Of a DNA stretch of 64,000 bases, positions 1-64,000 are shown piece after piece (positions within the stretch are counted from its first letter, which is position 1; every line of letters starts with the position of its first letter). Origin of the DNA: Mesostigma viride (lineage: Eukaryota > Streptophyta > Mesostigmatophyceae > Mesostigmatales > Mesostigmataceae); assembly GCA_009746045.1 (NCBI GenBank), contig RPFO01000796.1:95153-159152 (forward strand), given 5' to 3'. The notes under the pieces were generated by a model. It worked only from the letters and a program-made list of their open reading frames with translations. It did not search any database and had not been told where the DNA came from. A program made the position numbers and the translations under genes.

Positions 1-304
1 GTTGTACATGCAGCCATGCTACGCCCTGCATGGCTATGATCGGATTACTTGCCCACGCTCCTTGATTGTTATCATTGATATGCTCACATGGGTCTTACAG
101 TATTGCACCCACAGAACTTGCCCGATCGTCTATCGTGTCCGATTGCAGCTGACATGCATGGCATGCCTCTGGCATGAAGGAGAAAGGGGTCTCTGCCCTT
201 TCTTCCTGTAATTGTGCACATACAGGGATTAAAAGCACTTCGGTGCTCCGTGACTCCCCACCATGCATCCATGAACTGGAGCACGAGTTTAATTAATTTA
301 TTAA
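1..304 (+). mobile_element. 3' end of a TTAA-tailed retroposon (5' end outside window)
   Basis: This stretch aligns by eye with the 3' parts of the elements ending at 53.45 kb (+), 53.94 kb (-) and 50.79 kb (-). Shared landmarks are a block around 40-110, the purine-rich AGAAAGGGGTCTCTGCCC near 185, GGGATTAAAAGCACTTCGG near 228 and the terminal hairpin CGGTGCTCCGTGACTCCCC near 243, then GAGTTTAATTAAT. The hairpin's distal arm is disrupted by extra ATGCAT-like bases. No coding sequence is left. The TGCATG at 27-32 is a 4-bp insertion absent from three sister copies. Confidence 0.75.
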
Positions 305-639
305 TGGGTTGGCCCTTCAGCTACTTTCAACGTACGCACATCATGCAGTGCTAGCAGACAGCACCCATAGCTACTGGGTAGAGGAGCTTGTTGCCGGCTG
401 CTGCATTGCGAAATGTATGTGTGTCTATTCTAGGCGTTCAAGAGTATATCGTCGCACGGCACCTGCCCCCTGGCACGGTGCTCGAACTGAACGCCTAGCA
501 GGCGGTTGGCGTTTTTACTGACTTTGCTGGTAGTGGGACGCCAGGTCAAGCCGTGGCGTTGGCCTTTTGTGTTCGCCGCTGGCACTGAGCTGCCAGCCTC
601 AGCACGTTTCTAACCCCAGGCCTTATTATAAGGCGTGGG
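305..639. other. no gene seen
   Basis: Short chance frames only. A small palindromic CCTTATTATAAGG lies near 621-633, next to the start of recognisable LINE-A sequence. Confidence 0.5.
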
Positions 640-2786
640 GTTTATAATAAGCTCCGTTGAGGGGCAGTCGAAGCACCATGCACCTCACGGTTGGGGTGCC
701 GGTTATGCACCCCATTATTAGCGGTTTGCCACAGCTGGTATACGCAAGCATGCAGTTCTTTGCGGACTTGCATATGCTAGAGGGGGCACCCCGGCCCGCC
801 ACTTCTTGGTTATGCTGCTTGACGCCAACGCCATGCTCCCCGTGGGCACCTACTGCACTGGCAGTCGCTTTGCGCCGGCCGGCACGGCTGCTAACGACAA
901 CACCTCCTTGTTTTCTGCCTTTTTGCGGCCGGGATATAGCCGGCGGGATGCCGGTTGCTGTCAACACTCAACTACTCTATACTGCACTTCCAACGTCCCT
1001 CACAAGACTAATTGGTCGCCGGGGCCCTAACCATGCCGTCAGGCCTGTCTGCATGGACTGTACGTGGTGGTACACTGAGCAGCCCGGCAGCTAGCTAGGT
1101 GCGCTTCGGTTCTGGATACCCGAGTGTTCGACCCACCCACGGGGTGCTCTGACCACTGCATGCATGGACCGTTGCATCATTGGTGCGTGTGACTTGATTC
1201 GGCTACGGTTCCCGCGGCCCCGGCAAGCGCCGCGCCCAACAAGTGGTCCGTCCTGACTGAACTGCGCTACGCCCGGTCCGTGCATGGGGATCCTGATCAT
1301 AAGGACTGGACGGACGCCAACCACGATCGGAACAAGTGCCAGCCGGCAGGCCTACCTGGAGGCGCTGGGGGCCCAGGCGGACCGTCCGCCTGGGCCCCCA
1401 GCGCCTCCAGCCTCCAGGTACGCCTGCCGGCACTTGGCGACGGTCGACGCGCTGGCCCACTGGCGGTGCTCCCATGCAACGTACGCTGCCATTTTTGCGG
1501 GCTTTGCATGCGGCCCGCGCACCCTGTTGCTGGCGGCCCGGCACCTGCCGGCTGCATGCCCCGCGCCGCCGACCCGGCCCGCTCTACCTTCAGGAACCCA
1601 AGGTCCTGGCCGCCCGGCACTGCCTCTTAAGTGTAACCGGGACCCGCTGCTGAAACCGGTGCTCATGCAAGGCCGCCCTTGAGGAGGCCTATGCACACGC
1701 GCAGGACGCAGAAGCGGCCACGTGCATCGCGGATGCCCAGGCCTGCCAAGCTAGCTCGCAACCGCGACAATTAAGGAAATGTGGTACCACCTCCGACGAC
1801 CGGCTCGAGGTGGGCGGCGGCAGCGCACCCCGGTGCATGGAGCACACGGCCGGCCGGACGGCGAGGCGCCGGTATAAGCCTTGATGACCGCTGCATGGTT
1901 GGCCCACAATGTTTCCTTGACAGGTGGGGCTCGCGCCCCCCGGCCCGGCCCGCCGCTTCACCCCGCGCGGACGGCCGCCCGTCTCAGTGTTGCTGGACCC
2001 CGGCCACCGTCGCCTGCGCCACCCTCCTCGGTCGCGGACTACCAAGTCCCCGCCTTGAAGGAGGGCTGCCTAATTGCCACCAACGACGACGTCCACCTCT
2101 TTACTTTGGAGTATCCAATTGGACGGCGCCCTTCATCGCTTGCAGTACCACGCGCGGCGGTCGGTGCATGCCGACTATATACCCGTTTCGGCTGTCAGAG
2201 CTGCTGAAGACCCCTGACAGGGAGCTTCTGCTGGCGTTCTGCAATCGTGTTCTGCTCTCTGATGAGCCTCCGCCTGCTGAGTGGCCGGCAGACGGCTATT
2301 ATATCCCGCGAGTCATGCCGTACAAGAAGAAGCTCAGTGGCTCTGCTGCTGACCCCAGTAACTACCGGGGTGTCGCCTCCAGAGCGCCGTGCGCTGAACT
2401 ATAGGTCTATCTATATCGATCATACGCATGACTGCTGCACGGGCGCTCCGCGCCGCGCTGGACCCACACCTACTAGGTGAGTCTCAGATGGGTTTCCGTC
2501 GTGGCCGTAACACTGTCACATGGCTGTTGATTTCGGTAGCGTGTCCGACGGTTGAATCATGGTGGAGGAGGTGCGTCGCATTTGCCCTGATGGTCTTCAT
2601 TTTTGTCGACTATATCAAGGCTTTCGACACGGTCCTCTGGCCGGAGGCTCGATCTTTGGGCCATCCTAGCTCTGGATGGTGTGCCCCCAGCATTTATTGC
2701 TGCCATTCGCCGGCTGTATGAGGGCTCACAGGCATGCAGTGTATAGTGCAGGACTGTGGAAGCCGGCACCACCCCACCATTCCCCC
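640..2786 (+). pseudogene. LINE-A, 5' part: endonuclease and start of reverse transcriptase (decayed)
   Basis: Translated pieces match, in order, the endonuclease and RT of the better-preserved LINE copies in this window. They are LTVGV..HP.ISG (about 670-730), LLDANA.LPVG (812-850), then the pre-RT linker. Next come CNRVLLSDEPPPAEW and YKKKLSGSAADPSNYRGV (2230-2370), LGESQMGFRRGRNTV (2473-2517) and VFIFVDYIKAFDTVLW (2593-2640), the RT domain A motif with its catalytic Asp. Frames shift repeatedly, so it is dead. A TGCA-type insertion at 2733-2738 breaks the QAxVRT segment. The element does not end here: it resumes at 5981 after the piggyBac insertion and at 10706 after the LTR element. Confidence 0.85.
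1356..1410. repeat. perfect 26-bp hairpin with 3-nt loop
   Basis: Arms 1356-1381 and 1385-1410 are exact reverse complements around the loop CCG. The hairpin lies in the linker between the endonuclease and RT regions of LINE-A. It is very GC-rich and should extrude easily. Confidence 0.9.
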
Positions 2787-3108
2787 TTAACCCCTAAACC
2801 GTCCTCGTGCCGATTTTCGACTGCGAGTTTTTCTCATGCCTCACATTCGGCATGAGTTTGTGCGCCCTGTAGGGATTTGGCGGGAAGGTTTTGGCGGGAA
2901 CCAACTAGACCACCGAAAAGATCTAGATTCACTCTACTATCCGTAGGACACTTGTCTGACCGTATTTGACCACTGTATCAGGGTGGAAACCCTGGTCAAA
3001 GTCAACAGGGTACCCTGGTGCATGCAGGTTTGGGCGGTTTGACAAAAAAAATTGACAAAAACGTACGAAAACGAAGGATGCGAAAAAAGGGGGAGCGCGG
3101 ACATAGAC

Positions 3109-6583: not shown

Positions 6584-6588
6584 CCCTG

Positions 6589-7285
6589 AATTAACGCCAA
6601 GCGCATTGGCGTGATCCTGATTCGGCATATCTCTGCGATTCCAGCGGCACCGGAACGAGTTCATTCCGACAAGTATCAAGAAAGTTATGGCGTTCCGACT
6701 TCCCGGTCGCGCGCGAGCGCGAGCCGGCTGTTCTTCTAAAGTCGGACGTGAATATTTGCCGACGACATATGGGGTCGACAGTAATTCCTGGGCTGACAGG
6801 AATTAGGTGCTGTACCTACGACGGTATTGGATTAATACGTCGTACGCAGGAAATAGGAACCTTAACCTGTGGTCTGTTGGTACCGCAGGCTTAGTCCTGG
6901 ACTTCTAGGTGCAGATGCAATAGTCACTGTGGACTGTGCTCTGTGGTCACTGTGCCTGTATGGCAGACCTACTGTATAGGAGTTGGACGCTGTACAGGTA
7001 GTGAATACTGTACCGGGGGTGTTATTACTGAGCAGGCCTCCTAGGCTGCTCAGGACTAGCAAGCACAGTGCACAAGTATATAAACAATAGGCCAGTGCCA
7101 ATTGGGCATCTCTTGCGAGCCCGCCTCACGTGTTGTGCCTTGACTTGGCAAGCGCGTATACAAGCCTCAAGTGTGTGAGCGCTGTAACATTATCCAATTT
7201 TAACAAAGCTCCGTTTCCAACCATATACACACATTGCTGCATTGCAACCATATCCTTCACATTGCGTTTGCTAAGAACGTTAACT
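6589..7285 (+). repeat. 5' LTR
   Basis: Runs from AATTAACGCC to ACGTTAACT. A TATA box TATATAAA lies at 7077-7084, about 200 bp before the LTR end, as expected for the LTR promoter. One extra A (CTAAAG against CTAAG) and a T/A difference near 6604 distinguish it from the 3' LTR. Confidence 0.92.
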
Positions 7286-8309
7286 CAAATTACAACCAGT
7301 CTCAGCGGAACGGCCAGGAGGGTCGTTGCCGGTTGCGGTGTGCAGCGTTGACGACGCGAGGAGCTCGTCCGGTGGTGAATGGTGCAGGATCGAAGAACAA
7401 CGGCAGCAGGATTTCCGGTTTCGGCAGTCTGCTGGGGGTTCGATTTCGCCTGAATTGCGTCGTGTCGTTCGGGATCTATCTTTATTGCTTGCAGATCGTC
7501 CGCCTGTTAATCGCAGCTTCGTGCAATTCGTCGACGACCAGGTCGAAGATTGGGAGCGAATTCTGCGTCACGTCCAAACCATCGTCATTCCGGAGCACCG
7601 GAGCATCGACGACCTCGAGCAGGAGCTTCACGGTTTGGTCGGCATCCAGACGGTGATTACAGCAGTAGCTGAGCGAGTGCGTGCGGAGTTGGCGGCAAGG
7701 CGTGGCGAGGTTGCGGAGGCAGCTGGCGCAGTGCGACACGAGTTTGTACCGACAGCAGCGGGTGCGGGTGTACCACGTACTTTCGCAGGCGTCATCGGCG
7801 ACGAGGATGTTGCAGCGGGGCCAGTTAGGCGTGAACGACGCGGAGCGGAGCATTACAGGCGGCTTGCAGATCGCGAGGTCGGGGCGACAGCGGAAGCCAT
7901 CACCGGAGGACAGCGCGCGACAAGAGTCGGCAGGTTTCCGGAGCGAGTAAGAGTTCCTTTTCAGGAACTGCCCCCGCCCCTTCGCGTTCGTGTGACGCGT
8001 TGGGAGGAGTTTGCCCCTCTTGGGTACGATAGTGACCTTGAGGTGGGAGCAGGGGGTGTCGCTGGGCTAGGCGACGAGACACTTGGCGACCACGAGGTGC
8101 CAAGATACAATCCGCGGGGTGCCAACGACGGGTTGTCACCTGTCTACTATACCAACGGTGACGATTCACTCATCGCGGGCCGACAGCGGGTCGACGACGG
8201 CGCAGCGGGGAGCAGGGTGCCAGAGCTGATTGTGGTGAGCGACAGCGACGACGACAGCGACAAGGAGAACCAGGACGCGCCTGGGGCCAGCCGTGGTGGT
8301 CTTGCCTGA
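7284..8309 (+). CDS. gag-like open frame of the LTR element, no ATG
   Basis: The frame is open from the end of the 5' LTR (stop at 7281) to TGA at 8307, about 340 codons. It contains no methionine at all, so either the start codon was lost, initiation is non-AUG, or the frame is reached by splicing. The product is rich in Arg, Glu, Val and Ala. It has predicted helical stretches (LRRVVRDLSLLLADRP; HRSIDDLEQELHGLV) and an acidic Ser/Asp tail (SDSDDDSDKENQD) near the C-terminus. No zinc knuckle (CCHC) is present. The gag assignment rests on position and length only. Confidence 0.5.
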   Translation, partial: LKLQPVSAERPGGSLPVAVCSVDDARSSSGGEWCRIEEQRQQDFRFRQSAGGSISPELRRVVRDLSLLLADRPPVNRSFVQFVDDQVEDWERILRHVQTIVIPEHRSIDDLEQELHGLVGIQTVITAVAERVRAELAARRGEVAEAAGAVRHEFVPTAAGAGVPRTFAGVIGDEDVAAGPVRRERRGAEHYRRLADREVGATAEAITGGQRATRVGRFPERVRVPFQELPPPLRVRVTRWEEFAPLGYDSDLEVGAGGVAGLGDETLGDHEVPRYNPRGANDGLSPVYYTNGDDSLIAGRQRVDDGAAGSRVPELIVVSDSDDDSDKENQDAPGASRGGLA

Positions 8310-9254: not shown

Positions 9255-10004
9255 AAGCTGAGAGCTGGGTGCTTAAGTCTCTGGATATCAGGCTGGGAGC
9301 TTGATTGTACATAATCCTGAGCACACCTTGAGGGGTGAGACATGTCTCTGGTGTGGGAATGTCTGACATTGTCTCTGATGGAGAGATGTCTATCTGGGGT
9401 TTTCATCTCAGTCTGAGGTTTCCCCAGATATGTGGTTTGTGGGCGGGGTTCGATTCCCTGGTGCCGTCTTAAGGCGGAGTTTCACGGACTGGCTGACCCA
9501 TCCACCATGCTGGTGAGGTGGCGACAGGTCCCCTGATTTTCCACGGTTGGAACGAGTATGGGAGCTTGTGTTTTGCATGTGCTTCGCGTAGATGTTGTGT
9601 CTGGTTCGATAAGGGGCAGCAGACCGGCGCCGACTCCCGTCTGGGGGTCAGCAATGTTTTCTGATGAGCTGTTGTGGGTGATCTGTGGGGTTTCGCCTAA
9701 GGTCCTGAAGGTTGTACATACTTCTCAAGTTCTTAGCTGAACAACACCTATGGGCTGCCACAGTTGGCCAACCTCTTGTACATGGGTAACACAACGAGCC
9801 TCCCGTGAAGGGATAGGGACTCATTGTAATTTGTTTGTGCTCCTGAGCCAGTATGGGTGCTATGTACATATAATAAGGAATCCAAGCTGACTGTCATGCC
9901 CAGCGGGTTGTGACTTGTAGTCGGGGAGGATGTCCAGTACCCATTGTGTGTGTTTGTATGTAGACTTGTGTGAGCTGCTACAGCTCAAGAAAAGAAAGGA
10001 TTGG
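9255..10004 (+). other. 3' untranslated interior of the LTR element
   Basis: No coding sequence. An inverted repeat ATCTGGGG...CCCCAGAT lies at about 9392-9430. It ends in the polypurine tract that primes plus-strand synthesis in LTR elements (9987-10004). Confidence 0.6.
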
Positions 10005-10700
10005 AATTAACGCCAAGCGCAATGGCGTGATCCTGATTCGGCATATCTCTGCGATTCCAGCGGCACCGGAACGAGTTCATTCCGACAAGTATCAAGAAAG
10101 TTATGGCGTTCCGACTTCCCGGTCGCGCGCGAGCGCGAGCCGGCTGTTCTTCTAAGTCGGACGTGAATATTTGCCGACGACATATGGGGTCGACAGTAAT
10201 TCCTGGGCTGACAGGAATTAGGTGCTGTACCTACGACGGTATTGGATTAATACGTCGTACGCAGGAAATAGGAACCTTAACCTGTGGTCTGTTGGTACCG
10301 CAGGCTTAGTCCTGGACTTCTAGGTGCAGATGCAATAGTCACTGTGGACTGTGCTCTGTGGTCACTGTGCCTGTATGGCAGACCTACTGTATAGGAGTTG
10401 GACGCTGTACAGGTAGTGAATACTGTACCGGGGGTGTTATTACTGAGCAGGCCTCCTAGGCTGCTCAGGACTAGCAAGCACAGTGCACAAGTATATAAAC
10501 AATAGGCCAGTGCCAATTGGGCATCTCTTGCGAGCCCGCCTCACGTGTTGTGCCTTGACTTGGCAAGCGCGTATACAAGCCTCAAGTGTGTGAGCGCTGT
10601 AACATTATCCAATTTTAACAAAGCTCCGTTTCCAACCATATACACACATTGCTGCATTGCAACCATATCCTTCACATTGCGTTTGCTAAGAACGTTAACT
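10005..10700 (+). repeat. 3' LTR
   Basis: Near-identical to the 5' LTR, TATA box at 10492-10499. Its right edge ACGTTAACT is followed directly by the duplicated CCCTG. Confidence 0.92.
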
Positions 10701-10705
10701 CCCTG

Positions 10706-11790: not shown

Positions 11791-11792
11791 GC

Positions 11793-11965: not shown

Positions 11966-14676
11966 ATTGTTGCTGACGACATCGACGGCTGGCGGTTCTA
12001 CTACGGACCGGCGGCGACGGCACCGGGAACGGGGGCGTCGGTCTCCTCTGCTCCCCGCTCGCCGTACGCCACATATGGGCGAACCCCAGCTGGTCAACGC
12101 TCGGCTCCTCGTGGCCACTTTTCATTCGATGGAGGGCCACTCGACCTACGCCCTGACGGTGGGCGTTGGTTACTACGCACCCCACTCCGGCCACCCAGAA
12201 CAAGACCGCAAAGGACTTAAGATCTTTGCAGCGCTGGAGAACCTGGCGAACGGCATCCCTGGTCGCAACTACCTCGCTCTGCTGCTGGACGCCAACGCCA
12301 CGCTACCACCGGGTACTGGCGGATGTCAGCACGCCCCCAACGGTACGGTCTCCAATGCCAACACTGAACTTTTTGCTGATTTGCTTACGACATGCGATTT
12401 GGTCACTGCCAACACCCGCTTTCCACATAGTCCAGATGCTTTGGTCACACACACCTCGCCAACTGGCACTGAACGCTGCATTGACTATGTTGTAATGCGC
12501 AAGCGTCATCAAGGATATGTACTAGCTGCTCGCTCGCATGTGATCCCCCTGGTGCGCTCCGATCATCGCATCATCACCGCCCGCATCCGCCTGCGATTCC
12601 CCTCGCCCTTTCGTAAGCACGTGGCACCACCTGATTTGCGCACACTTCAGTTGCTCGAGAAATCTGACGACGCTCTGGAGGACTTCCCTGAAAAACGCGC
12701 CCACAAGCGTGCCGCAGAGGCGTTCGTCGACGCGCTGGACGTCCCGGCCAGGCTGCCACGCCCAGCAGCCTGTTCGCTGCCGGCCCGGCATCGGCCCTTC
12801 GGCACCTCGCTGACAAGCTGCCCGCGGCCGGGGCCCTACTGCCCCCCCGCCGCCCGCCCCGCTTCACCAGCCTGCACCGGCTCCTCGCCGTCATCCAGGC
12901 CCGGCAAGCCCTGCGCGACAACAGCAACCCCGCCCGCTACGCCCGCCTCAAAGCCGATTACCACTCGGCCATCCGGCAGGCGACCAAGGAGCAGGAGGAC
13001 CTTCATGTCCGCGAGTACATACTTCGCCCACCTCAAGGACCAGCACGGCAAGTACGCCTGGACCCGCCTGCATGCGTCACGCCCAACGGCCCGCGCCGGC
13101 GGCGCGCAGCCGGCGCCGCGGACCGCTCTCTGGCTCACCGCAGCAGCAGCTCGACCAGTGGTATTCCTCCCAGTCCCGGCTGCTCGGCGCCCCCCCGCCG
13201 CCTGAGTCCGCCGCTTGGCCCTCTGGCGGCCGCACGCCTGGCAGTAGCACCGGCGGACGTCCCTGCGCCGCCCACGCCGCCCGCCGCTGAGCAGGACTAC
13301 ACGTACCCAGCCCTGACGGAACCCCTGGCCGACCCCAACGAGCTCCCGCCGTTCACCGAGCTCGAGCTGAGCACCGCCGCCAAGCAACTCCGCTTCTATG
13401 CCGCCGTTGGACCTGACCAGCTCCCAGCCCCGGTGATTAAGCTGACGGCGCTCACGGGGTTCCTGCTTGACGTCTGCAACCGGATCCTGCTTGCCGACGC
13501 GCCGCCGATTCGATCCTGAGTGGCAGCACAGCTACCGTATTATGCTGTACAAAAACAAAGGTTCCCCTGACGACCCCGCCAACTACAGAGGAGTCTGCAT
13601 CCAGAGCGCCGCACTTAAGTTGTTCATGCGCATGATCCTCGACCGCCTTCGTTCTGCTCTCGACTGTCACCTTGGGGAAAGTCAAATGGGCTTCCATCCT
13701 GCATGGGCGCAACACCGTCATGCATGGCCATCTTCGTCGCGCGTCGCCTCTTCGAGGAAATCGCTCTCCTGCAACCTGGTGAGTTTCCTGCCATCCTGAT
13801 CTTCGTCGACTTCATCAAGGCTTTTGATTCTGTCCTCTGGGACGCTCTATGGGCTGTACTTGCTCGCGCTCGCGTCCCCACTCCCCTGATAATTACCGTC
13901 ATCCGCACGCTGTATGAGGGGTCGACCACTTCGGTGCGCACTCAACACGGCATTACCCCGCCATGCCCTCTGCAGACCGGCGTCTGGCAGGGTTGCGTCC
14001 TGTCGCCGTATACCTGTTAACGTTTATTATTGTAGTGGATTATGTTATGCGCCAGGCACGTGCTCCGGCGCTTTGCTAGCATTGCAGGCCGTGCCCCTGG
14101 CCTAGTGATCACGAACGAGCTTGGGGAAGGGGGGCCGACTAACAAGCAGAATTTACTAGCTGACCTCATTTATGCCGACGACATCACGCTCATCGAGAAG
14201 CCGGAGTCTGCCCAACTTTGGCTGGACTGCCCGGCGCTCGAGGCTCGGGCGGTTAATTGGTCTAGAAATCAGCCCCAAAACGGAGGCCCTGGCCCTCAGC
14301 ATGGCAGGGCCCCCACCCACACTCCGCCTCTTAGACGATGCCGAGGTCAACTACCCTCCTTCAGGCCGCTTCAAGCTGCTCGGCAGTTGGCTTCCCGACT
14401 GCGAGGACGACATGACGACACGGATCGGCATGGCGTGGGCGCACCTCCATGACCACCGCCGCTGGTGGAGCAACCCCGCCCTACCCCGGATCGTCAAGCG
14501 TGACCTCTTCAAGGGCGCTGGCCGGAAACGAGGTCTTTTCAAGGTTCTTGTTCTTACTCTTCTGACCTATACGGGGCGGAAGCCTGCCCAGACACTCACT
14601 GAACATCTGGAGTCTAGATTAATTGAATTTTCAAAGCAGTACGTTAGTAGGATGCGTAAGTATATCTTGGGGTAAG
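11960..14676 (+). pseudogene. LINE-B: endonuclease-RT ORF2, frameshifted
   Basis: The AP-endonuclease part (11967-12640) shows LTVGVGYYAPHSGHPEQD, LALLLDANATLPPGTGGC, ERCIDYVVMRK and SDHRIITARIRLRF. The SDH triplet is the catalytic His motif of this nuclease fold. RT follows in changing frames: YKNKGSPDDPANYRGVCIQS (13545-13604), LGESQMGF (13671-13694), ILIFVDFIKAFDSVLWDALW (domain A), TGVWQGCVLSPY (13978-14013), DLIYADDITLIEK (the YADD catalytic box, 14163-14200) and FKLLGSWLPDCEDD. TGCATG insertions at 13700-13705 and 13721-13726 and TTAATT at 14253-14258 each shift the frame; deleting those 4 bp restores continuity. The end is YVSRMRKYILG at 14673. A direct repeat (GACCTCTTCAAGG...GGTCTTTTCAAGG) near 14500-14545 is a small internal duplication. 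Confidence 0.88.
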
Positions 14677-14685
14677 TAAGTAGTA

Positions 14686-14771
14686 AGTACTTGCGTGTCA
14701 TGCGCAAAGGCATGCCACGGAGTACTATGCTAATCTCATTAGAAAAATAATTACACAAAAGTTTAAACAAA
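14686..14771 (+). repeat. left copy of an ~85-bp inverted repeat flanking LINE-C
   Basis: This begins GTACTTGCGTGTCATGCGC and includes CCACGGAGTACTATGCTAAT. Its reverse complement lies at 20713-20799 with roughly 84% identity over the whole length, by eye. Related single ends occur at 32774-32812, 33690-33718 and 51735-51770. It looks like the terminal repeat of a DNA-transposon family. Confidence 0.8.
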
Positions 14772-14803
14772 TATCGTCTGCATCATCCCCCAACCGTTAA
14801 GCA

Positions 14804-16261
14804 CTAGATGGGGATGTAATCCTCATCCGAGCTGTCCTCTACTGTAATGGCAGACGAGGCGGTAGTGTAGCGGCTATCCTCAGGACCAATAACCTCCACC
14901 TGCGGACTTCTACCCTGGCTACTAAGCAACGGGCCGCGGGGCCCGTGGGGAGAAAACAGGAGCATACCCCTCGGGAAGGTGCTTGTCGCAGATGGCAGCC
15001 CATTTCTCCTTGTCAATCATGCGGGCGCGGAGTACGGATAGTCCCAGAAGCCCTGCATCTTCAAGCAGTTGTGTCACATAGGTCCGGGTCGCGCCGCGCC
15101 GGTGCCCGGCGCGCGCAAGTTTGCCAGTGGGTTGCGATGGGACAAGGGGACCCTGCCATAGGAGGAGGTGTCTACCTGGTTGGCCCGTCTTAAGCCCCCC
15201 GGCAGGGCCCACATCGGTATTCACCTGGTCTGTGCGGGCAAGATGGCCGGCAAAGAGGAGGCGGCGGTGTCGGATGGTATGGGTGACAAGAGGGAGCTCG
15301 CAGTAGAGCTCGGCCCGGGTGCGGCGTTCTTGGTAGCGGACGCCGAGGATATGACGGAGCATTCGAGTGACGGTGCCGTCAAGCTGCTGGCTCAGCGCCT
15401 GGTCCAGGGTCCACGCCTCGCAGCCATAAAGGAGGATGCTGAGGACAAGGGCCTTGAACAGAATGCGCTTGCGTCGCTCACTCAGGTAGCGACAGGTCCA
15501 GAACCTGTCGAGGCGGCGGAGGGCCGCCCAGGCCTGGCCAATGCGGGTGTTGATGTCGTCGGCCGTGGAGGGAAGCCAGCTGCCAAGGAGCTTGAAGCGA
15601 GTCGCCGGGGGGACGGGGCTGCCGTCCAGCAAGAGGAGGGTGGGTGGGGCTATCCCAGCAGGGAAGCCGATGGCCATGACCTCCGTTTTCTTGCTGATCA
15701 TAAGCCCCACCGCCCGCGCTTCCAGTGATAAGCTGTCTAGCCACAGTTGGGCTGACTCTGGGGTTTCCACGAGTGTCGTGTCATCAGCGTAGATCAGATC
15801 GCTCAGGCGGTAGGGTGGGTCAACCCCGCCGTAGCTGGCGTACTCCGTGATCTCGATCCCCGGCGGGCGCCCCTCCACCCGGGCGAAGCGGGCGTGTGCA
15901 CGCCGCATAATATAGTCCACCATAATGATGAATAGATATGGGGAGAGCACACAGCCCTGCCACACCCCGGTGTGCAGGGGGAACGCCGGAGTGACGCCGT
16001 CGGCGGTACGGACCTGGGCTTGGGACCCTTCATAGAACTGGCGGATGATCTCAACGATGTACGATGGGACACGGAACAGGTGAAGGACCACCCACAGGGC
16101 GTCCCATGTAACCGTATCGAATGCCTTGGTGTAATCCACGAAGATCAATAGCAATGGCAAGAGGCCGGGGGCCAGGCGACCCACTTCCTCGATCAGGCGG
16201 CGCGCGGTAATAGTGACCATAACACAATTGCGACCAACACGGAAGCCCATCTGGGACTCAC
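14804..16261 (-). pseudogene. LINE-C ORF2, C-terminal two thirds (RT), nearly intact
   Basis: A single frame of 442 codons runs from MGFRVGRNCVMVTITARRL (at 16250) through LLLIFVDYTKAFDTVTWDAL (RT domain A), TGVWQGCVLSPYLF, DLIYADDTTLVETPE (catalytic YADD) and RFKLLGSWLPSTADD. It continues to LFKALVLSILLYGCEAWTL, RHRRLLFAGHLARTDQVNTD and INTRIGQAW. After a last frameshift near 14940 it ends ITVEDSSDEDYIPI at TAG 14804. This is the best RT in the window. The first part of the RT lies on the far side of the transposon at 16266-17964. Confidence 0.9.
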
Positions 16262-16265
16262 CTAG

Positions 16266-17964
16266 CCCCTAAATGGGCGGAAATGCTGCCGATAAATCGG
16301 CAGTAACTCACCTATTTTGTAAACCAGCCCCTGTACAACCTAGCAATATCCAATGGCTGTCCTTGGGGGGCAAGCATGTCCATGAGTTGCCCTAAGCCAT
16401 GATATATCACAACCTCACATATATTCATCGTAGGCCATGTATAACTGCCGTCAAAGTCAGGGGGGTCAAGACGCGCGTTTTCATTTTTGGTAGAATGTGC
16501 ATTTTGAATTATGTTGTAAGAGCTAGGCACCTACCACTTCAGGGATGATAAACAATTAGTTGCTGAACAGTTTGAGCCATTGGGGTCATCATTTGGGTGG
16601 GTATACCAGCAGTTACACCCAGTACAGCCCATAGGGGTACCGTTGGTAAAAAGCAACCAAGGGGGTAGGAGTGGGCATACTACCTACTAATACCTACTAA
16701 TATGGCCCCCAACCATGCCAAACAATACATTTCCCTTCCACAATTATGGGGAAACATAACTGCATCATCACACTGCCCTTACATGGCACCTATGTGCAGG
16801 TGCCACCTTGTCCATGCACGTAGGTAACGTGGTACGGATACCCTACGCAAGGCATGCATTCTAGGAGGCAGCCACCAACAAACTAGTGATTTCAAGCCTA
16901 TTTCAGCCTGTCCTAGCAAGGATAAACTAGGCCTAAGCTGCTATAGCTTTCCAGGTGATGGCCAGCACACCTGGTGGCACATGCTGACAATGGGAAGCTT
17001 CTACTCACCGGTTACATGCTTGATGATGCCACAGAGACCAGCCAACTGCCTCACACTCATGCAATATGTGTGTGGGAAATGTATAACAAACATATATGGA
17101 GGTATTCAAACCCATACAGCCTCTAAAACTTATCACCATCACCCTGTGGCAGGTCAACTGACTGAGGGAAGCATCTAAGAAGGGTGTTTTAGAAAGGGGC
17201 CAGGCCAGGGTCAAGAAAGAGCATGAATAATCCAAAAAGAATGTGCTACACAAGCTAGAACGTATATATAAACGTCAAACATCGATAGGAAAACGATGCT
17301 TAAGCTTTACCAGGCATGGATGGCGTTACCTTGGCCCAGGCGGTGGCCGCAAAATGGCGCATTTCGGCACACCAAAGTTGTGCAGCATGGTCGCTGGATT
17401 CGGCGATTTCTGGCCACCCTTGCACGTTTACGACTAATATGTATCATAAAAAGTACAAAGAAACCGATATATCCTTTAAAATACGCCGGAAAGGTATTGC
17501 TGTCAACGTTTCTATCGTCCGGCCTGATCGCAGTTTTTTCCAGCAAGAACGCTGCCGACACCTATCAAATGGCATTCCCGCGAACCAAAAATTGGCCTGT
17601 ATGATCTTTAGGACGTATAAAATCAATATCCTAAGTTTGGCCAGAAAATTCGAACGCAAACGTAAATGCCATGCGTGGGCGCAAGCCGCCATGGCCAGGT
17701 CGTCGTTTTCCGCAATGCACGTTGTACGTGAAAAAGTACCCTGACCCCTTGTACTTAGACGGTCTGGAACACCTGTTAAACTTGGTCAAAATATAGCAAA
17801 CCCTAGTATCATGTTCTGGAGAAACTTATAAACTTTCATTCTTCTCAGCTAAACGTTTCCTAATTCCCAATAGTATTCTCGCAAACTGGTCCCCCGAGTA
17901 GGTGCCGACAAATCGGCTGCAAGTCACTTTTTGGCGGAAAATCGGCAGCAAGACCATTTAGGGG
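16266..17964. mobile_element. 1.7-kb DNA transposon inserted in LINE-C, CTAG (or TA) duplication
   Basis: Termini are exact inverted repeats CCCCTAAATGG, and both ends share a subterminal TGCTGCCGAT. CTAG stands directly outside each end (16262-16265, 17965-17968). Because CTAG is palindromic, the duplication could equally be TA with a longer TIR starting GCCCC, as in Tc1/mariner-like elements. Joining the flanks through one CTAG rebuilds the LINE codons for HLGESQMGF, which fixes the insertion point. No transposase is recognisable among the interior short frames; non-autonomous. Confidence 0.85.
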
Positions 17965-17968
17965 CTAG

Positions 17969-20112
17969 GTGGGGATCGAGGCTGCATGGCGCGCATGCGG
18001 TTCAGCAGGAGACGCATGAAGACTTTCAGCACGCAGCTTTGGAGGCATACGCCGCGGTAGTTGCCGGTATCCGCGGCGGACCCCTTGCCCTTGTAGAGCA
18101 TGACCCGTACAGCGGTCTTCCAATACGTCGGCGGGGGGAGGCCATCTCGTAGAATCCGGTTGCAAACACCCCGGAGGAAGGGCTCAAGCTCAGGCATCTT
18201 AACCACCTCCGGTGAAATATTGTCCACTCCCATGGCAGCATCATTGCGGAGGGTGGAGATGGCAGCAGCCCATTCCTGGGGAGTCCACTCGTCGTGGGGG
18301 CCGTCCACCAGGGGGCCGGAGAGCGGTGGGACCAGGTAGTCCGTCTCGCTGGTGGGCGCCTGCGGGGGCTCGATGGGGCCGCCTCGGCTGGCCGCAGGGC
18401 GTGCAGCTGCAGCGGGGTCAAGCGGGGGGGGCGGGCCAGGGGCCCCTGATAGTTTGGCCTGGGAGCTGAACCAAATCTCAAGGCGTTCACTGGGGGTGCC
18501 TGGGATGTCAGCCCGTTGCGTTTCCCGGCGTCCGGTGAGACGGTCGAGGAGCGCCAGGCCGCCTTGTGCTGGTTGGCGGCCGTGTGGCGATTGATTTCGG
18601 CGGCAAGTGTCTCCACCTCCTCCGCATGTGCGGCAGTATATGCTTGAGTAAGCCGTTCCTGGTACGGGTACAGGTCCTCCCCGCGGCGGCGGGCCTGCGC
18701 TAGCGCCAGCCGGGCGGCAACCACCCGGGCGTCGCGCAGGTAGAGCGGGGCTGGTCGGGCGCGGGGTTGCTCGGGGAGAAGCTTAGAGCCAAGCTCCACC
18801 GATCGCATGAACAGTTCGTAGGGTGGCGTGAGATCTACACCGCGATCTGCGTCCAGGTACATCAAAGGTTGCGCGTCCACAAAGGCAGACCTGATTGCAT
18901 CGCGGCGTATCTCATCCGCTGACCACTTCTCCCTGCGCCCACGGACGGGGCGTAAGCAGGTCCAGTCAGGGCGGGGCCGGGGGCGGCGGCGCGCAGGGGC
19001 CTGAAGACGTAGGCGCAAGGTTGCGGTGACCATGCGATGATCCGATGCGACACTGGGGGTGGTCAGCGTACGGGCATCGATGACGGAAGAGCGCCAGCAC
19101 TTGCGCACAAGTATGTAGTCCAAGCAACACATCGCCGCCGAGGGAGCATTGAGCCAGCCGCCCTGCGCATGGGGCCCACAAAGGTCACTAGTGCATCAGG
19201 CGGTTTAGCAAAAAGCGTATTGGCAGCAGTCAAGTCCCCCTCAGTGAGCAGTTGCTCAAGTAGGGGGGTGTTGGCATTGCTATCGGTTAGGCGCGGCGCA
19301 TACATGCAGCCCCCGCGGCCCACGGGCAGGGTCGCGTTGGCATCCACCAAGATGGCGACGATGTATTGACGTGGGATCTGTTTCTCTATGTCGAGCAACT
19401 GGTTGAAGAACGCTGCGCGGTCCTCGGCCGGGTGCCCAGCATGTGGGGCATATCCGACAATTACCGAGAGCATAATGGGGGTCCGTCCTTCAAGGGAGCG
19501 GAAAGTGCACTGAAGGATTCGATTCGAGCAAAGTTTGTGGTCCACGAGCTGGGCGGCAGCGGTGGGGGAGCACAGCAGGCCCACTCCTCCCTGACCCGGT
19601 GCATGCGCCGGGCCGCACAGCAGTTGCCATTGTAGTGCGAGGGTGACACGCTGAACGGGGCCCTCAAAGGAGCGTCGGTGCTCTTGGACCCCAAGCACGT
19701 CAATGCCATATAGGCGGCAGTAGTGGACAAGCTCGTTGGCCCGCGGGGGGGCATCTCCCCCGGGCAGAGTGCGGACATTGTAGGTAGCGATGCGCAGCGA
19801 GTGGTGCCGGCGTTGGCCCAGCAGGGGGCGCCGGGGACCCGCGGTGTCGGCAGGGGGTTGGGGGGAGGCTGGCGGGGACGTGTGTGCGGCGTGAGATAAC
19901 ATAGTACTTTTCAACGCGCATAGGGCACCCTCCAGGCGGGCGGCGCGACTTGCTCGCCTGGTCTTGGGGTCAAAGAATGCAGCATACCGTTGGGAGTGCC
20001 GGGTTGCGAAAGCCAGCAGGCGCTCCTTGTTGCGAAGTTGGCGATGAAGGTCGCGGCTTTGACTCCGTTGCGTCGTCCGTGAGATTGGACTATCCAAGAC
20101 ACGCTCGGCCAT
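17969..20112 (-). pseudogene. LINE-C ORF2, N-terminal part: endonuclease and start of RT
   Basis: The frame starts with ATG at 20112 (MAERVLDSPISRTTQRSQS). After a basic leader comes LRIATYNVRTLPGGD, the first endonuclease strand with the catalytic Asn. Then ELVHYCRLYGIDVLGVQEHR (catalytic Glu), LSVIVGYAPHAGHP, AILVDANATLPVGRGGC and, after a 1-2 bp frameshift near 19135, LDYILVRKCWRSSVIDART with SDHRMVTATLRL. A second frameshift near 18545 precedes the RT start, EWTPQEWAAAISTLRNDAAM then NISPEVVKM and YKGKGSAADTGNYRGVCLQS. A CATG insertion at 17983-17988 is absent from the related copy at 34.07 kb. The ORF ends at the transposon. Confidence 0.88.
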
Positions 20113-33749: not shown

Positions 33750-34466
33750 TGGTGGACGGCCCCCATGATGAGTGGACCGGGGAATGGGCTGCTGCCATCT
33801 CCACCCTCCGCAACGATGCTACCATGGGAGTGGACAATTATATTTCACCGGAGCTAGGTTACATTTCAGCCTGAGCTTGAGCCTTTCCTCCGGGGTTTTT
33901 GCAACCGGATTATACGAGATGGCCTCGCCCCCCGCCGATGTATTGGAAGACCGCTGTCTGGGATCATGCTCTGCAAGGGCCAGGGGTCCGCCGCGGATAC
34001 CGGCAACTACTGCGGCGTATGCCTCCAAAGCTGCGTGCTGAAAGTCTTCATGCGTCTCCATGCTGAACCGCATGTGTGCCAGCCTCAATTCCCATTTAGG
34101 TGCTGGAGTCCCAGATAGGCTTCCGTGTTGGTCGCAATTGTGTTATGGTCACCACAGACTGCGCTCCGCCTGATCGAGGAAGTGGGCCGCCTGGCCCCGG
34201 CCTCTTACCAATGCTATTGATCTTCGTACGTGGATTACACCAAGGCATTCGATACGGGTTATGTAGGATGCCCTGTGGGTGGTCCTCCACCCGTTTCGTG
34301 TCCGGCATGCATCGTACATGCATTGTTGAGATCATCCGCCAGTTCTATACAGTTAAGGGTCCCAAGCCCAGGTCCGTACCGCTGACGGTGTCACTCCGGC
34401 ATCCCCCCTGCACACCGGGGTGTGGCAGGGATGTGTGCTCGATCTGCAGCCCCACATCTATTCATC
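33750..34466 (+). pseudogene. LINE-D1: RT fragment closely related to LINE-C
   Basis: This parallels LINE-C from the DEWT...EWAAAISTLRND region through GLxxPPxYWKTAV, the GESQMGF motif (here GVPDRLP after small indels) and FVDYTKAFDT. It ends at TGVWQGCVL..YLFI. It carries the insertions GTACGT (34226-34231) and ATGCAT (34318-34323) relative to LINE-C, plus a 3-bp one near 34104. At 34067-34085 it has GCCAGCCTC without the ATGC insertion seen in LINE-C. It ends at a TAAATTAAATTAAATTA tract. Confidence 0.8.
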
Positions 34467-49453: not shown

Positions 49454-49689
49454 GTGATCCATAAAATGCTCCAAATGACCGTATTTGTGACGGTTGACAG
49501 CATAATTTCTGGCCATCCCATCTCTATTTCGGGTGCAACTTAGTACTTGAGCTGCATATGTTATATTTAATGTGTCTGCCCATTTCCAGGTCAAAACGAC
49601 ATTAATTGTGTTGTTTGTGGAATTAATTATGAATAAAACTGGCAATTTCGGCGTTTTTTATGCTTTTGGACGTCACCATTCTGTGAGCA

Positions 49690-50569: not shown

Positions 50570-50788
50570 CAGAAGCCCGCTTTGCCCGGGTGGAGGGGCG
50601 CCCACCGGGGATCGAGATCACGGAGTACGCCAGCTACGGCGGGGTTGACCCGCCCTATACCGACTGAGCGATCTGATCTACGCTGATCACACGACGCTCG
50701 TGGAGACCCCGGAGTCCGCCCATGCAACTCTGGCTAGATAGTTTGTCACTGGAAGCGCGGGCGGTGGGGCTTATGATCAGCAAGAAAT
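50570..50788 (+). pseudogene. LINE RT fragment close to LINE-C
   Basis: Parallels LINE-C from FARVEGRPPGIEITEYASYG through DLIYADxTTLVETPES and LWLDSLSLEARAVGLMISKK. Catalytic YADD has become YADH. CATGCA at 50721-50726 is a 4-bp insertion relative to LINE-B and LINE-C. The fragment ends where the next retroposon's TTAA tail starts. Confidence 0.8.
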
Positions 50789-51690
50789 TAATTAAGTATT
50801 TAATTAAACTCGTGCTCCCGTTGGCCGGGGAGTCAATTAAGGAGCACCGGAGTGCACCTGTATGTGCACAAAAGGAAGAATTTCTGACGAATTGAAGGCA
50901 GAGGCATGCCACAGCAGCAATTGGACATGATAGACGATCCGGCAGGTTCTGTGGGTGAATAAGACCCACGTGAGCATATCATAATAACAAGGAGCGTGGG
51001 CAAGTAAGCCAAGCATAGCCAGGACGTAGCATGGCTGTACAAGGGCTAAGCCGGTGGCTATGGCTGGTTGCATATGTACTGTGCGTTATAGCGGTGCACG
51101 TGACTAGGTATATGGTGGCACGGCTAGTAGGCAAATATTCTAGGCATGGCTGCCATGGTGGCAGTAACTACCAATGATTACAAGCTAGGGCTATTCTATA
51201 GCCCGCAGCTAGGCTGGGGGCGACCACATCTTGTGGTTGATCATCATGCAGGTCCCCGCGCCCCTCCATGCAGTACACCTTGGGCTTCTGGGGGCCCCTG
51301 CTTGTGGCGGAGGTACATTAATTCGGGCCACAGGTCGCGGCGCTGCTGCTGCTGAGCGGGGGTCAGGTCGTCGTCCAGCGTCCAGGTGAGGTCGTGCAGC
51401 CTCGGATCTTGCGATCGACGAGAAAGGAACCTCTGCTTGTCCTCAGGGCTGGGGAGGGGAAGGTGAGCAAGACTGGCCGGTGGGGGAGCCACGCCTTGTC
51501 CCGTGAGGCGTGAGTAGGGAAGGCGGTGGCACCCGCGCAGTTCTACGCCTACTATACCAGGCCCATATGAGGGTAAGAAGCTGGTCCTTGAGCTCGTCGG
51601 CCGGCAAGGGTGGTTTCCAGATGTCTCACCTGGCTTCTGCATGGGGGAAACGACGCAGCACCACTAGCTCGGCATGCGCGGCGAGCGATC
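50789..51690 (-). mobile_element. ORF1-type retroposon, minus strand, TTAA-tailed
   Basis: On the minus strand ORF1 C-terminal sequence (KQRFLSRRSQDPRLHDLTWT, DDDLTPAQQQQRRDLWPELM) runs from about 51650 to 51240. The 3' UTR follows and then the hairpin at 50815-50860, with the tail at 50788-50810 inserted into the LINE fragment. It carries insertions at 50823-50828 (GGCCGG), 50835-50840 (AATTAA), 51267-51272 (CATGCA), 51413-51418 (GATCGA), 51475-51480 and 51599-51604 (GGCCGG). Confidence 0.8.
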
Positions 51691-52375: not shown

Positions 52376-53557
52376 TCATCCACCGACCGCGCCCGCCGCG
52401 ACTGCCGGGTGGTGCTGCGTCGTTTCCCCCATGCAGTTAAGCCAGGTGAGACGTCAACCACCCTTGCCGACGAGCTCAAGGACCAGCTCCTTACTACCCT
52501 CATGGGCCTGGTAGGTGAGGTAGTTAACTGCGTGGGTGCCACCGCCTTCCCCACTCGAGTGATCACGGGACAAGGTGGCTCCCCCACCAGTCCCGCTAGC
52601 TCACCTTCCCCTCCCGTGAGGACAAGCATGCAGCGGTTCCTTTCTCGTCGCAAGACGGTTTGTGCACACGACCTCACCTGGACGCTGGACGACGACCTGA
52701 CCCCTGCTCCTGAAGCAGCAGCAGCGCCGCGACCTGCATGTGGCCGGAATACCTCCGCCACATGAAGCAGGACCCCCAGAATTAAGCCCAAGAAGGTGTA
52801 CTGGAGGGGCGGGGCCCTGATGATCAAACATGCAAGATGTCAGACGCCCCCTCCGGGCTGGGCTAGAATAGCTAGCCCTAGCTTGTATCCGTTGGTAGTC
52901 ACTGCCGCCATGGCAGCCATGCTTAGAATGCTCGCCTAGCTAGCTGTGCCACCATACCTACTACTGAGCTAGTCACGTGCACCACTATAACACATGCACG
53001 GTACATGTGCAACCAGCCATAGACTTAGCTTATATAGTCCTTGTACAGACAGCCATGCTACGTCCTGGCTATGCTCAGATTACTTGCCCACGCTCCTTGT
53101 TATGATATGCTCACATGGGTCTTCTTGCACCCGGCCACACATGATTCTTGCCGCCTGCCGGATCGTTAACCGAGTCCGATTGCAGCTGTGGCATGCCTTT
53201 GTGGCATGAAGTAGAAAGGGGGTCTCTGCATCCCTGTCTTCCTGCTGTGCACACACAGAACAGGGATTAAAAACACTTCGGCGCTCCGTGGCTCCCCAAT
53301 TAACGGCATGCCGATTGCAGCTGCGGCATGCCTTTGTGGCATGTCAGAAGTAGAAAGGGGGTCTCTGCCCTTTCTTCCTGCTGTGCACACACATGCAGGG
53401 ATTAAAAACACTTCGGTGCTCCGTGACTCCCCAACGGTCCTGCATGAGCACGAGTTTAATTAATTAATTAATTAATTAATTAATTAATTAATTAATTAAT
53501 TAATTAATTAATTAATTAATTAATTAATTAATTAATTAATTAATTAATTAATTAATC
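52376..53557 (+). mobile_element. ORF1-type retroposon with long (TTAA)n tail
   Basis: Coding-like sequence gives CRVVLRRFPHAVKPGETSTT (the start of an RRM-like strand), LADELKDQLLTTLMGLVGEV, MQRFLSRRKT, DLTWTLDDDLTPA, then VYWRGGALMIKH after a frameshift. The 3' UTR (52870-53450) includes a partial internal duplication of its last 120 bp (53190-53310 against 53311-53440). It ends GAGCACGAGTTTAATTAATT. Insertions CTAGCT (52596-52601), TGCATG (52735-52740) and AATTAA (53298-53303) are specific to this copy. Confidence 0.8.
53452..53557. repeat. (TTAA)n tail, ~105 bp
   Basis: About 26 uninterrupted TTAA units, the longest tail in the window. Any (TTAA)n is a perfect palindrome, so it can form cruciforms. 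Confidence 0.97.
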
Positions 53558-54171: not shown

Positions 54172-54904
54172 CTTGAAGCCATCACCGCCCACACCGATCG
54201 AGGCCCTGGCCACACAGGTCCCAAAGGGATAATAGCGGAGCAGAAGGCCACCATCGCATCCCAGCCACCCTGGCAAGATGCTGGCGACCTCCCGCCGCTC
54301 TCCTATGCGGACCTGCTGCGGTCAGCGACTGCCTCAACCACTGACGCCATCGCCACGAAACTCCAGCCTGGAGCTGGAGGACCACCGCGCCAGGCCGAAC
54401 AACGGGAGCCGGGAGGCCACCGACCGCGCCCGACGGCCGCCGCGAGTGCCGAGTGGTGCTGCGTCGTTTCCCCCATGCAGCCAGAAGCCAGGTGAGACGT
54501 CAACCACCCTTGCCGACGAGCTCAAGCACCAGCTTCTTACCCTCATGGGCCTGGTAGTATAGGTGAGGTAGAACTGCGCGGGTGCCACCACCGGCCTTCC
54601 CCACTCACGGGACAAGACGGCTCGATCCCCCGGCCACCAGTCATGCTCACCTTCCCCTCGGGCCTGATCGATCGAGGACAAGCGACGGTTGACCTTTCTC
54701 TGATTGCAAGAGGAATTGCGCGACCTCTGACACCTGGACGCTGGACGACGACCTGACCCCCCGGCGGCCCGCTCAGCAGCAGTGCAGCGCCGCGACCTGT
54801 GGCCTGAATACATCCCGGCCACATGCAAGCAGGGGCCCCCATCGAAGCCCAAGGTGTACTGGCTGGAGGGGCGGGGACCTGCATGATGATCAACCACAAA
54901 ATGT

Positions 54905-54973
54905 GGACGCCCCCTGCATGCATGCGGGCTAAAGAATACTATTCTATAGCTCGCATGCATGCAGGGGGCGTCC
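54905..54973. repeat. 22-bp inverted repeat with 25-bp loop
   Basis: GGACGCCCCCTGCATGCATG + CG and its exact reverse complement at 54952-54973. Sister copies at 51.2 and 52.85 kb have only the left side, without the TGCATGCATG, so the palindrome arose in this copy. Confidence 0.9.
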
Positions 54974-55325
54974 AGTAGTCCAGTAGTCCTAGCTTATAAT
55001 AACTGGTCTACAGTCACCGTGCAGCCATTGCAGCCATGCCTAGCCTGTTTGCATAGCCGTGCCACCATACCTAGTCATGTGCAACACGCGCTATAACTAA
55101 CACACGGTACACAACCAGCCATAGCCTCAGCTTAGCCCTTGTTGTAGTACAGCCATGGCAGCTACATCCTGGCTATCAGTGATCATGCAGATTACTTGCC
55201 CACGCTCCTTCAATGTTATGATATGCTCACATAGGTCTTATTGCACCCACAGATCTTGCCGCCGGGATCGTTATAACCGAGTCCGATTGATTGAGCACTG
55301 CTGTGGCGTGCCTCCAGTGCCACTA

Positions 55326-60131: not shown

Positions 60132-60133
60132 TA

Positions 60134-63119: not shown

Positions 63120-63261
63120 TTACGGGTGGTGCATTAAGCGCAGGCTTTCGACCTTCCCTTTCAACACCAAACTACTCCATCATCTTGTGTAAGTTAGGGT
63201 CTTAGGGGCAGTGCAGCTTGTCTGGACGATCGATCATGCAGACAAGCACACGTGACCCTGA

Positions 63262-63412
63262 CCGAAATGATTACCAAAAAAGGACAAATGATTACCGATT
63301 TTTACCGATGATTACACATGATTACACATGATTACACGTACATGATTACCAAAAAAGGACAAATGATTACCGATTTTTACCGATGATTACACATGATTAC
63401 ATATGATTACAC
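63262..63412. repeat. direct duplication with ATGATTACAC sub-repeats
   Basis: GATTACCAAAAAAGGACAAA to CACATGATTACA occurs twice (63267-63338, 63343-63412). Within each, the 10-mer ATGATTACAC is repeated two to three times. Confidence 0.9.
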
Positions 63413-64000
63413 CCCGTATTACATAGGAAGGTGTGACTATGTACTCCACCCTATGTACTCCAAGAGTACATAGGGTGGCACACTATGTACTCCAAGAGTA
63501 CATAGTCCGGAGTACATATGATCCGGGATTTCCGAATAGGGGACTGCCGACGCGGTGAGACACGCCCGTATTACATAGGAAGGAGTGACTATGTACTCCA
63601 CACTATGTTCCAAGAGTACATAGGGTGGCACACTATGTACTCCAAGAGTACATAGTCCGGAGTACATATGATCCGGGATTTCCGAATAGGGGACTGCCGA
63701 CGCGGTGAGACACGCCCGTATTACATAGGAAGGAGTGACTATGTACTCCACACTATGTTCCAAGAGTACATAGGGTGGCACACTATGTACTCCAAGAGTA
63801 CATAGTCCGGAGTACATATGATCCGGGATTTCCGAATAGGGACTGCCGACGCGGTGAGACACGCCCGTATTACATAGGAAGGAGTGACTAAGTACTCCAC
63901 ACTATGTACTCCAAGAGTACATAGGGTGGCACACTATGTACTCCAAGAGTACATAGTGTGGAGTACATATGATCCGGGATTTCCGAATAGGGGACTGCCG
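63413..64000. repeat. ~150-bp satellite with hairpins, runs off the window
   Basis: Four units start at 63413, 63565, 63715 and 63864 (CCCGTATTACATAGGAAG), spaced 152, 150 and 149 bp. Each contains two copies of CTATGTACTC CAA GAGTACATAG, 10-bp stems with a 3-nt loop, and a GGAGTACATATGATCCGGGA block. Copies differ by only a few bases. Confidence 0.95.

Follow-up and report, generated by a model that had tools for sequence, protein, structure and literature searches.

Palindromic four-base insertions in retroelement copies of Mesostigma viride and their possible origin in break repair

LINE copies and insertion sites in the window

The stretch of DNA analysed here, referred to as the window, comprises 64,000 nt from the alga Mesostigma viride (contig RPFO01000796.1, positions 95,153–159,152), and lies in a genome of 439,911,974 bases in 2243 contigs. 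It carries pieces of long interspersed nuclear elements (LINEs) with reverse transcriptase and endonuclease domains, and the named proteins closest to the window reverse transcriptase are those of M. viride, with identities of up to 63%. Alignment of repeat copies confirmed that palindromic insertions of four bases are real in retroelement copies.

An old LINE-type family is represented by copy A (50780..51690, plus strand), which was aligned with copies B (52390..53310) and C (54430..55320) and with 29 genome copies. B and C lie on the minus strand, as does an end fragment, D (1..310). Copy A is antisense to a partial open frame resembling LINE ORF1. Copies of the old family have one end in common and are ragged at the other. 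In the first pair compared, 70 mismatches were accompanied by 54 insertions or deletions (indels), of which 21 measured 4 bp.

A young LINE family occupies 14673..16265 (minus strand; the reverse transcriptase-coding and 3′ part) and 17965..18917 (minus strand), upstream of the insertion of a DNA transposon, el4. Its genome copies are about 98–100% identical. Genome loci that were fetched carry L-numbers, the young LINE loci being L040–L068. For each genome search the best 40 candidates were scored (of 3289, 1464, 191, 1478 and 1411), with old or interrupted copies under-sampled. Young LINE copies terminate in (ACTT)n and other inserted copies in (TTAA)n, and several new insertions at young LINE loci are flanked by duplications of about 10 bp. 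A (TTAA)25 tract at 53456..53556 is probably a LINE 3′ tail, because related copies also end in (TTAA)n; an earlier sequence-only reading had derived such tracts from iterated insertion, which is not required.

The insertions follow a rule in which a word w of k = 2, 3 or 4 bases becomes its first two bases, its reverse complement (rc) and its last two bases, w[:2]+rc(w)+w[-2:], with a net gain of 4 bp. For k = 2 the product is XY-rc(XY)-XY. For k = 3 or 4 a very short stretch is inverted and two bases are duplicated on either side of it, e.g. CTGA to CT TCAG GA. The sequence-only reading had recognised the first form, which is true as the k = 2 case of this wider rule.

Events of the k = 2 kind, all given on the plus strand, include CATG at 50721..50724 (lacked by 30 copies), AATT at 50835..50838 (AA to AATTAA; 16 copies), CATG at 51267..51270 (CA to CATGCA; 17 copies), CGAT at 51412..51415 (GA to GATCGA; 21 copies), GGCC at 51475..51478 (GG to GGCCGG; 18 copies), CTAG at 51664..51667 (CT to CTAGCT; 17 copies) and TGCA at 52735..52738 (29 copies). 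CGTA at 34225..34228 (GT to GTACGT) is lacked by 30 copies, and TGCA at 17983..17986, in the young LINE, is private to the window copy and lacked by 25. Events with k = 3 have the words TAG (14921..14924, young LINE; lacked by 27 copies), TCA (54727..54730; 28), TGC (55157..55160; 23) and CGG (55261..55264; 18), and those with k = 4 the words TCAG (52710..52713; 20), CACA (53006..53009; 22) and GTAG (55008..55011; 18). An 8-bp insertion at 54666..54673, GATCGATC, looks like two rounds at one site and is lacked by two copies.

Twenty-seven stretches had been listed in the earlier reading. The letters given were present at 26 of them; the exception, 34318–34323, reads ATGCAT and does not have the form claimed, the true event being the insertion of CATG one base to the left (34317..34320, CA to CATGCA) rather than one of an AT class. 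At 21 sites, by our reading of the alignments, the insertion was lacked by at least two other genome copies (support 2–30 copies), while those at 10820, 13700, 10765, 54630, 53298 and 54822 were unsupported by other copies. At 54822 a 5-bp gap was called against the genome copies, although against copy A positions 54824–54827 are a fitting TGCA, and at 53298 the AATT insertion (53298–53301) was seen in one pair.

Counting of hexamers, which had been suggested as a check, gave only a slight excess over an order-4 Markov model of the window (observed/expected: TGCATG 64/62.2, AATTAA 85/63.3, CATGCA 95/72.0, the latter two being among the larger excesses). This is weak evidence alone and was dropped as proof. 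Genome counts of TGCATGN4TGCATG (1171 + 982, versus 35 + 32 for the reversed pattern) were likewise not used, as TG and GT differ in frequency. The alignments were decisive, and they bore out the predicted excess of palindromic 4-bp insertions.

A product rule for four-base insertions

Within LINE copies, insertions are far more numerous than deletions, and the modal insertion length is 4 bp. The old family gave 385 distinct insertions versus 21 deletions when flanks were clean, and 357 private insertions versus 66 deletions when counted per copy without that filter; in these per-copy counts loci L026 and L027, being mutual duplicates, have no private changes. The young family gave 49 private insertions of any length, 40 of them of at least 2 bp, versus 18 private deletions. 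Insertions with poor flanks were left out (fewer than 5 of 6 matching bases for the old-family and pooled sets, fewer than 4 of 6 for window pairs). The pooled set also left out events lacked by one copy only, events of more than 12 bp, the window tandem arrays, and alignments that were shorter than 120 bp, more than 99.9% identical or had fewer than two gaps.

The rule accounted for most 4-bp events in every set. Window pairs gave 56 unique 4-bp indels, of which 34 followed the rule, where 5.1 were expected from permuting inserts among sites. Of 84 such events in the window that two or more other copies lack, a few of them different placements of the gap for one event, 54 followed it as well. 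The young family, the cleanest set (29 genome loci and that of the window; 72 kb in all, with 78 private substitutions), had 16 fitting among 18 private 4-bp insertions, with 1.8 expected, and no 4-bp deletion. For the 32 copies of the old family the figure was 95 of 138 (12.4 expected), and for the pooled loci 331 of 513 (48.3 expected by permutation). An ordered classification of the pooled set, in which each event was counted once, assigned 329 of the 513 to the rule (k = 2, 3 and 4: 232, 71 and 26). Aligned sets thus lay about 7- to 9-fold above the permutation nulls, and by far more above a random-insert null, in which random 4-mers at the same sites fitted in 2.4% of cases and random 4-bp tandem duplications in 13%. 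Chance, selection by eye or assembly error might account for a near-background hexamer count and for the six unsupported sites, but not readily for these margins, nor for neighbouring repeats on the same contigs that are free of scars; we consider such an origin extremely improbable.

The length of w is confined to a narrow range. When the family majority was taken as the original and k was allowed up to 12 (bubbles of more than 12 or 20 bases being left out), only k = 2, 3 and 4 were found, with 11, 3 and 2 events in the young family (16 of 18) and 38, 13 and 7 in the old (58 of 122). Words of 5–12 bases were absent from both families. Offsets were 2+2 in 331 of the 334 pooled 4-bp insertions of any inverted form. 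Orientation was similarly strict: against the 329 inverted events, one direct analogue was present among the other 184, direct forms being counted among non-inverted events only. On this ground excision by two cuts followed by free re-insertion was rejected.

These regularities bear on polymerase snap-back or strand switching in replication or repair (foldback synthesis), which the sequence-only reading had given as its alternative. Any inverted templated insertion can be expressed as two switches, foldback insertions of mostly about 5–34 bp are described at yeast breaks (PMC11724301), and a few 3+3 events do occur in our data. Such synthesis is nonetheless a poor fit to offsets that are nearly always 2+2, to the lack of words above four bases in the two families tested and to self-complementary dinucleotides that strictly gain 2 bp, and we regard it as improbable.

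The last of these features was found in the companion classes of the pooled set. Direct 2-bp duplications were of self-complementary XY in 83 of 91 cases and of other XY in 8. Self-complementary XY made up 3 of the 232 k = 2 events with a gain of 4, against a background of 25% (p = 8 × 10−25). A further 66 of the 308 +2 insertions had the form XY to XY-rc(XY) with XY not self-complementary, and 104 of the 244 +3 insertions were the rule form minus one base, where 37 were expected for any inverted form.

Simple filling-in of staggered ends, 4-nt (topoisomerase II-like) or 2-nt (Spo11-like), with palindromes arising by chance, would be another source of such gains. It could draw on the 13% of random tandem duplications that satisfy the rule and on the plain 4-bp duplications that exist, but only 23 of these stand against 329 inverted events, and among 2-bp duplications there are 8 of the non-palindromic kind against 83. 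This explanation is therefore very unlikely to be correct.

Edges of w showed a base preference. The base outside the edge was C in 44, 46 and 42% of events for k = 2, 3 and 4 (background 28%), and the first base inside was a pyrimidine (Y) in 66, 63 and 64% (background 50%); strands were pooled, so that symmetry is by construction, and the numbers of events were 232, 71 and 26. Because the preference follows the outer edges of w, it suggests that each strand is cut once, at C|Y, the 5′ stagger being k. The fixed 2-nt stagger of the earlier reading apparently has to be replaced by one of 2–4 nt, and a fixed 2-nt stagger with variable fill-in is less supported for the same reason (k = 3, 71 events; k = 4, 26 events). 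No signal-like motif was seen: the k = 2 logo was C-YR-G with nothing strong within 8 bp, and k = 3 and 4 were viewed within 4 bp. These edge logos do not correspond to RAG-type cutting at recombination signal sequences.

Classical P-additions made independently at the two ends were also considered and rejected. They matched 24 four-base insertions; most of the 20 displayed were self-complementary words also covered by the rule, and the six-base form XY-rc-rc-XY expected of independent double P-addition was not found. TAGG in L050, one of the two non-fitting young insertions, resembles a double P-addition by eye.

Repeats hit, repeats spared and the timing of insertion

Repeat clusters were compared for the presence of scars. 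Clusters rich in fitting 4-bp indels were recognisable LINE families and the window tandem array T. In the array (cluster 20), 58 of 96 clean 4-bp gaps fitted over 81 overlapping pairs, although by eye these are mostly one CATGCA difference recounted. A control repeat from T (40847–41800, 15 fetched copies and that of the window) had two distinct 4-bp insertions, neither of which fitted by eye; it also had a single 4-bp deletion and a +3 insertion that did fit by eye. The array itself spans 40847–49455 in units of about 3 kb, is present on other contigs and contains 24-bp sub-repeats, some of which have the array-shared CATGCA difference. Cluster 4, which is partly el4 and includes LINE-like pieces, had 34 fits among 47, and a few small clusters of unassigned kind had one to six.

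Two neighbouring repeats served as unaffected controls. The DNA transposon el4 (16266..17964) has inverted ends CCCCTAAATGG and a CTAG duplication. Alignments with three other loci had mismatch counts of 70, 41 and 10 and gap-opening counts of 2, 2 and 0, and the pair with L026 had no indel of at least 2 bp. The second, c11 (39307..40584), is a repeat with many substitutions and few indels: three pairs gave 536 mismatches and 21 gap openings, of which one was of 4 bp with flanks that were not clean. For the c11 pair with L029, global alignment gave 31 indels where BLAST gave 10 gap openings. At L026, L010 and L029, LINE copies with 16, 16 and 13 insertions lie only about 370–480 bp from the spared el4 or c11 stretch, so distance is no reason for the sparing.

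A retroelement with long terminal repeats (LTRs) at 6588..7286 and 10004..10701 (both plus strand) was probably also hit. When 21 copies (20 fetched, together with the second LTR of the window) were compared with the first LTR, 11 private substitutions and 7 private indels were found; the indels include a TA duplication and a single 4-bp insertion, which on manual inspection follows the rule with k = 4. These numbers are too small for certainty. The two LTRs are nearly identical, the element is flanked by a 5-bp duplication, CCCTG, recognised by eye, and its LTR had 1478 first-look genome candidates. Positions 5570–5775 of the window form a perfect 206-bp palindrome, which is its own reverse complement throughout.

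The sequence-only reading had raised the possibility of a footprint-leaving transposase. Scars would then be excision footprints of a hAT- or CACTA-like cut-and-paste transposon that visits retroelements, makes a 2–4-bp duplication and forms hairpins on the flanks. Ac/Ds footprints likewise show P-nucleotides and microhomology (PMC5873905). The C-YR-G preference, with strands pooled, is a target preference such as this account would use, and 6 of 18 five-base insertions with a 2-bp duplication have CAG or CTG cores resembling leftover element ends. No such transposon was found resident: among 14 larger LINE inserts in the fetched copies, which were the only ones searched, none is flanked by a duplication of 2 or 3 bp; el4 has one of 4 bp, and the others have 6–12 bp. 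L048 has some 40 additional bases with an overlap of 5 bases. Extra bases at L048:740–830, in a young LINE copy, contain TTTTAGGGTTTAG, which is similar to a telomere repeat, with ACTG at the borders, and were perhaps captured at a break. As the source of the scars el4 was rejected because of its 4-bp duplication (CTAG on both flanks); its single flanks in L003, L026 and L027 are TTAA. A transposon would also require that the nick offset always equal the duplication length minus 2, and it would have to leave el4 and c11 without scars. We consider this explanation unlikely.

The timing of the insertions was examined in both families. Private substitutions in the young family are even over codon positions (19/14/19), while shared ones fall on the third (3/1/12), and private changes therefore look like those of dead copies. 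Across copies, insertions rise with substitutions in the old family (rho = 0.54, p = 0.001) and in the young (rho = 0.42, p = 0.02), and they are far denser in the old family (357 private ones over 32 copies, each about 0.72 kb long) than in the young (40 of at least 2 bp over 72 kb). Together these data favour an ongoing process that would act on integrated copies. Within the young family, in which 40 private insertions of at least 2 bp accompany the 78 private substitutions, 27 of the 40 lie inside the long open stretch and most of these break the frame, which makes their inheritance through active copies unlikely.

These data also bear on errors that would arise during reverse transcription or in the cDNA, among them the cutting and rejoining of cDNA by the host. 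Such errors would explain why LINEs are hit, the LTR element probably so (one private 4-bp insertion fitting by hand) and the DNA transposon not at all. The far higher density in the older family, the correlation with substitutions and the frame-breaking insertions in the young open stretch all argue against it, and we hold a cDNA origin to be rather unlikely.

A break-repair interpretation and its relation to known systems

On balance, we think it somewhat more probable than not that the insertions are repair scars of staggered breaks whose ends were sealed as hairpins, reopened and annealed through their tails. A putative activity would cut both strands of the retroelement, each at C|Y, leaving a 5′ overhang w of 2–4 nt. 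Both 3′ ends would gain 2 nt before being sealed as hairpins, and each hairpin would be reopened 2 bp into its stem in an Artemis-like manner, as at V(D)J coding ends; Artemis cleaves the hairpin apex or 2–4 nt away from it (PMC13041557). The resulting 3′ tails, w[:2]+rc(w) and rc(w)[:2]+w, would be complementary over k bases, and annealing, gap filling and end joining would give L-w[:2]-rc(w)-w[-2:]-R, a gain of 4. With a self-complementary dinucleotide the tails would pair over 4 nt rather than 2 and the gain would be 2, and loss of one or two terminal bases would produce gains of 3 or 2. The tail-pairing prediction agrees with the data, because self-complementary XY gives +2 and rarely +4. 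The sequence-only reading, with its break, fill-in and opening of a hairpin that adds two palindromic bases, had come close to what the data require.

The product rule with its range of k, the switch to +2, the edge preference, the rise of scars with divergence and the sparing of neighbours are all observed. The break, the hairpin, its reopening, end joining and timing after integration are what we infer from them.

Several observations weigh against this interpretation. Among pooled 4-bp insertions, 160 of 513 fit nothing, and 23 are plain tandem duplications. Part of these misfits is alignment noise, because the fitting share climbs with copy support (from 28 of 76 to 95 of 118), but this is unproven for all. 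Unexplained, too, are 151 of the 308 +2 and 110 of the 244 +3 insertions. The pooled search, which affords a poor view of longer words, returned one match with k = 5 and one with k = 6, and offsets of 3+3 occur in 5 of the 49 insertions of six bases, where 0.5 would be expected, so that an offset of 2 is not absolute. Five-base insertions carry a 2-bp duplication in 18 of 57 cases, and their CAG or CTG cores are as a transposon footprint would give; examples of XY-CTG-XY and XY-CAG-XY are TA-CTG-TA and AA-CTG-AA in L053, the duplicated pair not being TA only. Some copies escape, such as L013 of the old family with 23 mismatches and 1 insertion. L022, also of the old family, has 30 mismatches and 4 insertions, and location effects or another repair state are possible reasons for the near-absence of scars in both. 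The comparison of densities is one of different elements, and unsampled rounds of retrotransposition could partly explain the accumulation. An extension fixed at 2 nt regardless of overhang length is odd. Known hairpins arise by transposase or RAG transesterification, and we know of no enzyme that seals such ends after fill-in. The interpretation, finally, offers no mechanism by which retroelements would be chosen.

A more specific version of the break-repair interpretation can be put forward only tentatively. The alga may hold a retroelement-directed cutter that makes C|Y 5′-staggered breaks in LINE (and LTR) DNA, with hairpin closing and reopening at +2. This would amount to a mutagenic genome defence that kills frames by +4, +3 and +2 insertions, using V(D)J-like chemistry outside immunity and without a resident transposon. 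If true, it would be a new type of genome defence. Irrespective of the source, a +4 signature set by 2–4 local bases makes single break-repair events countable in a genome, and yields testable predictions on the limit of k, the pairing of tails and the C|Y edges.

Among the listings of open-access full-text searches on such insertions, related mechanisms and the genome of the alga, no description of the +4 signature was met, and the string 'palindrom' is absent from the main text of PMC7027972. Yeast foldback insertions resemble the scars in that inverted local sequence is inserted at a break, but are mostly of the greater length given above and rely on nearby microhomologies (PMC11724301). 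V(D)J coding joints are alike in their short palindromic additions beside the break (PMC13041557), P-nucleotides in T-cell receptor joints being primarily of two bases (PMC3528771). Correspondingly, in the scars rc(w) adjoins w[:2] with the nearly constant 2+2 offsets. Unlike coding joints, the scars would come from two ends that share one overhang and whose modelled tails pair, have +4 as the main product, lack a RAG signal and are spread across retroelement copies.

The target duplication of hAT elements is 8 bp. Footprints of Ac/Ds, a hAT system, share with the scars P-nucleotides and microhomology-guided joining of opened hairpins, microhomology being present in 85 to almost 100% in Arabidopsis, and the centre of our k = 3 form is the complement of one base, as reported for those footprints (PMC5873905). 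The scars differ in having words of 2–4 bp and +4 as the main product, with no transposon found among the copies searched.

For mariner elements the classical duplication is TA. Mariner/Stowaway footprints combine a small duplication with bases of the element end (PMC4561436), and the minor XY-CTG-XY class is similar to them. The main class here has no constant core, and its duplicated pair is rarely TA.

In fungi, repeat-induced point mutation is a C-to-T mutation targeted to repeats. The process described here would likewise concentrate mutation in repeats and break their frames, in this case by insertions of 4, 2 and 3 bp; among the repeats compared, LINEs are hit, el4 and c11 are spared, and scars rise with divergence. 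The joint itself is of a known, P-nucleotide-like chemical kind, whereas its setting and its rigid product rule are new within the scope of the searches made.

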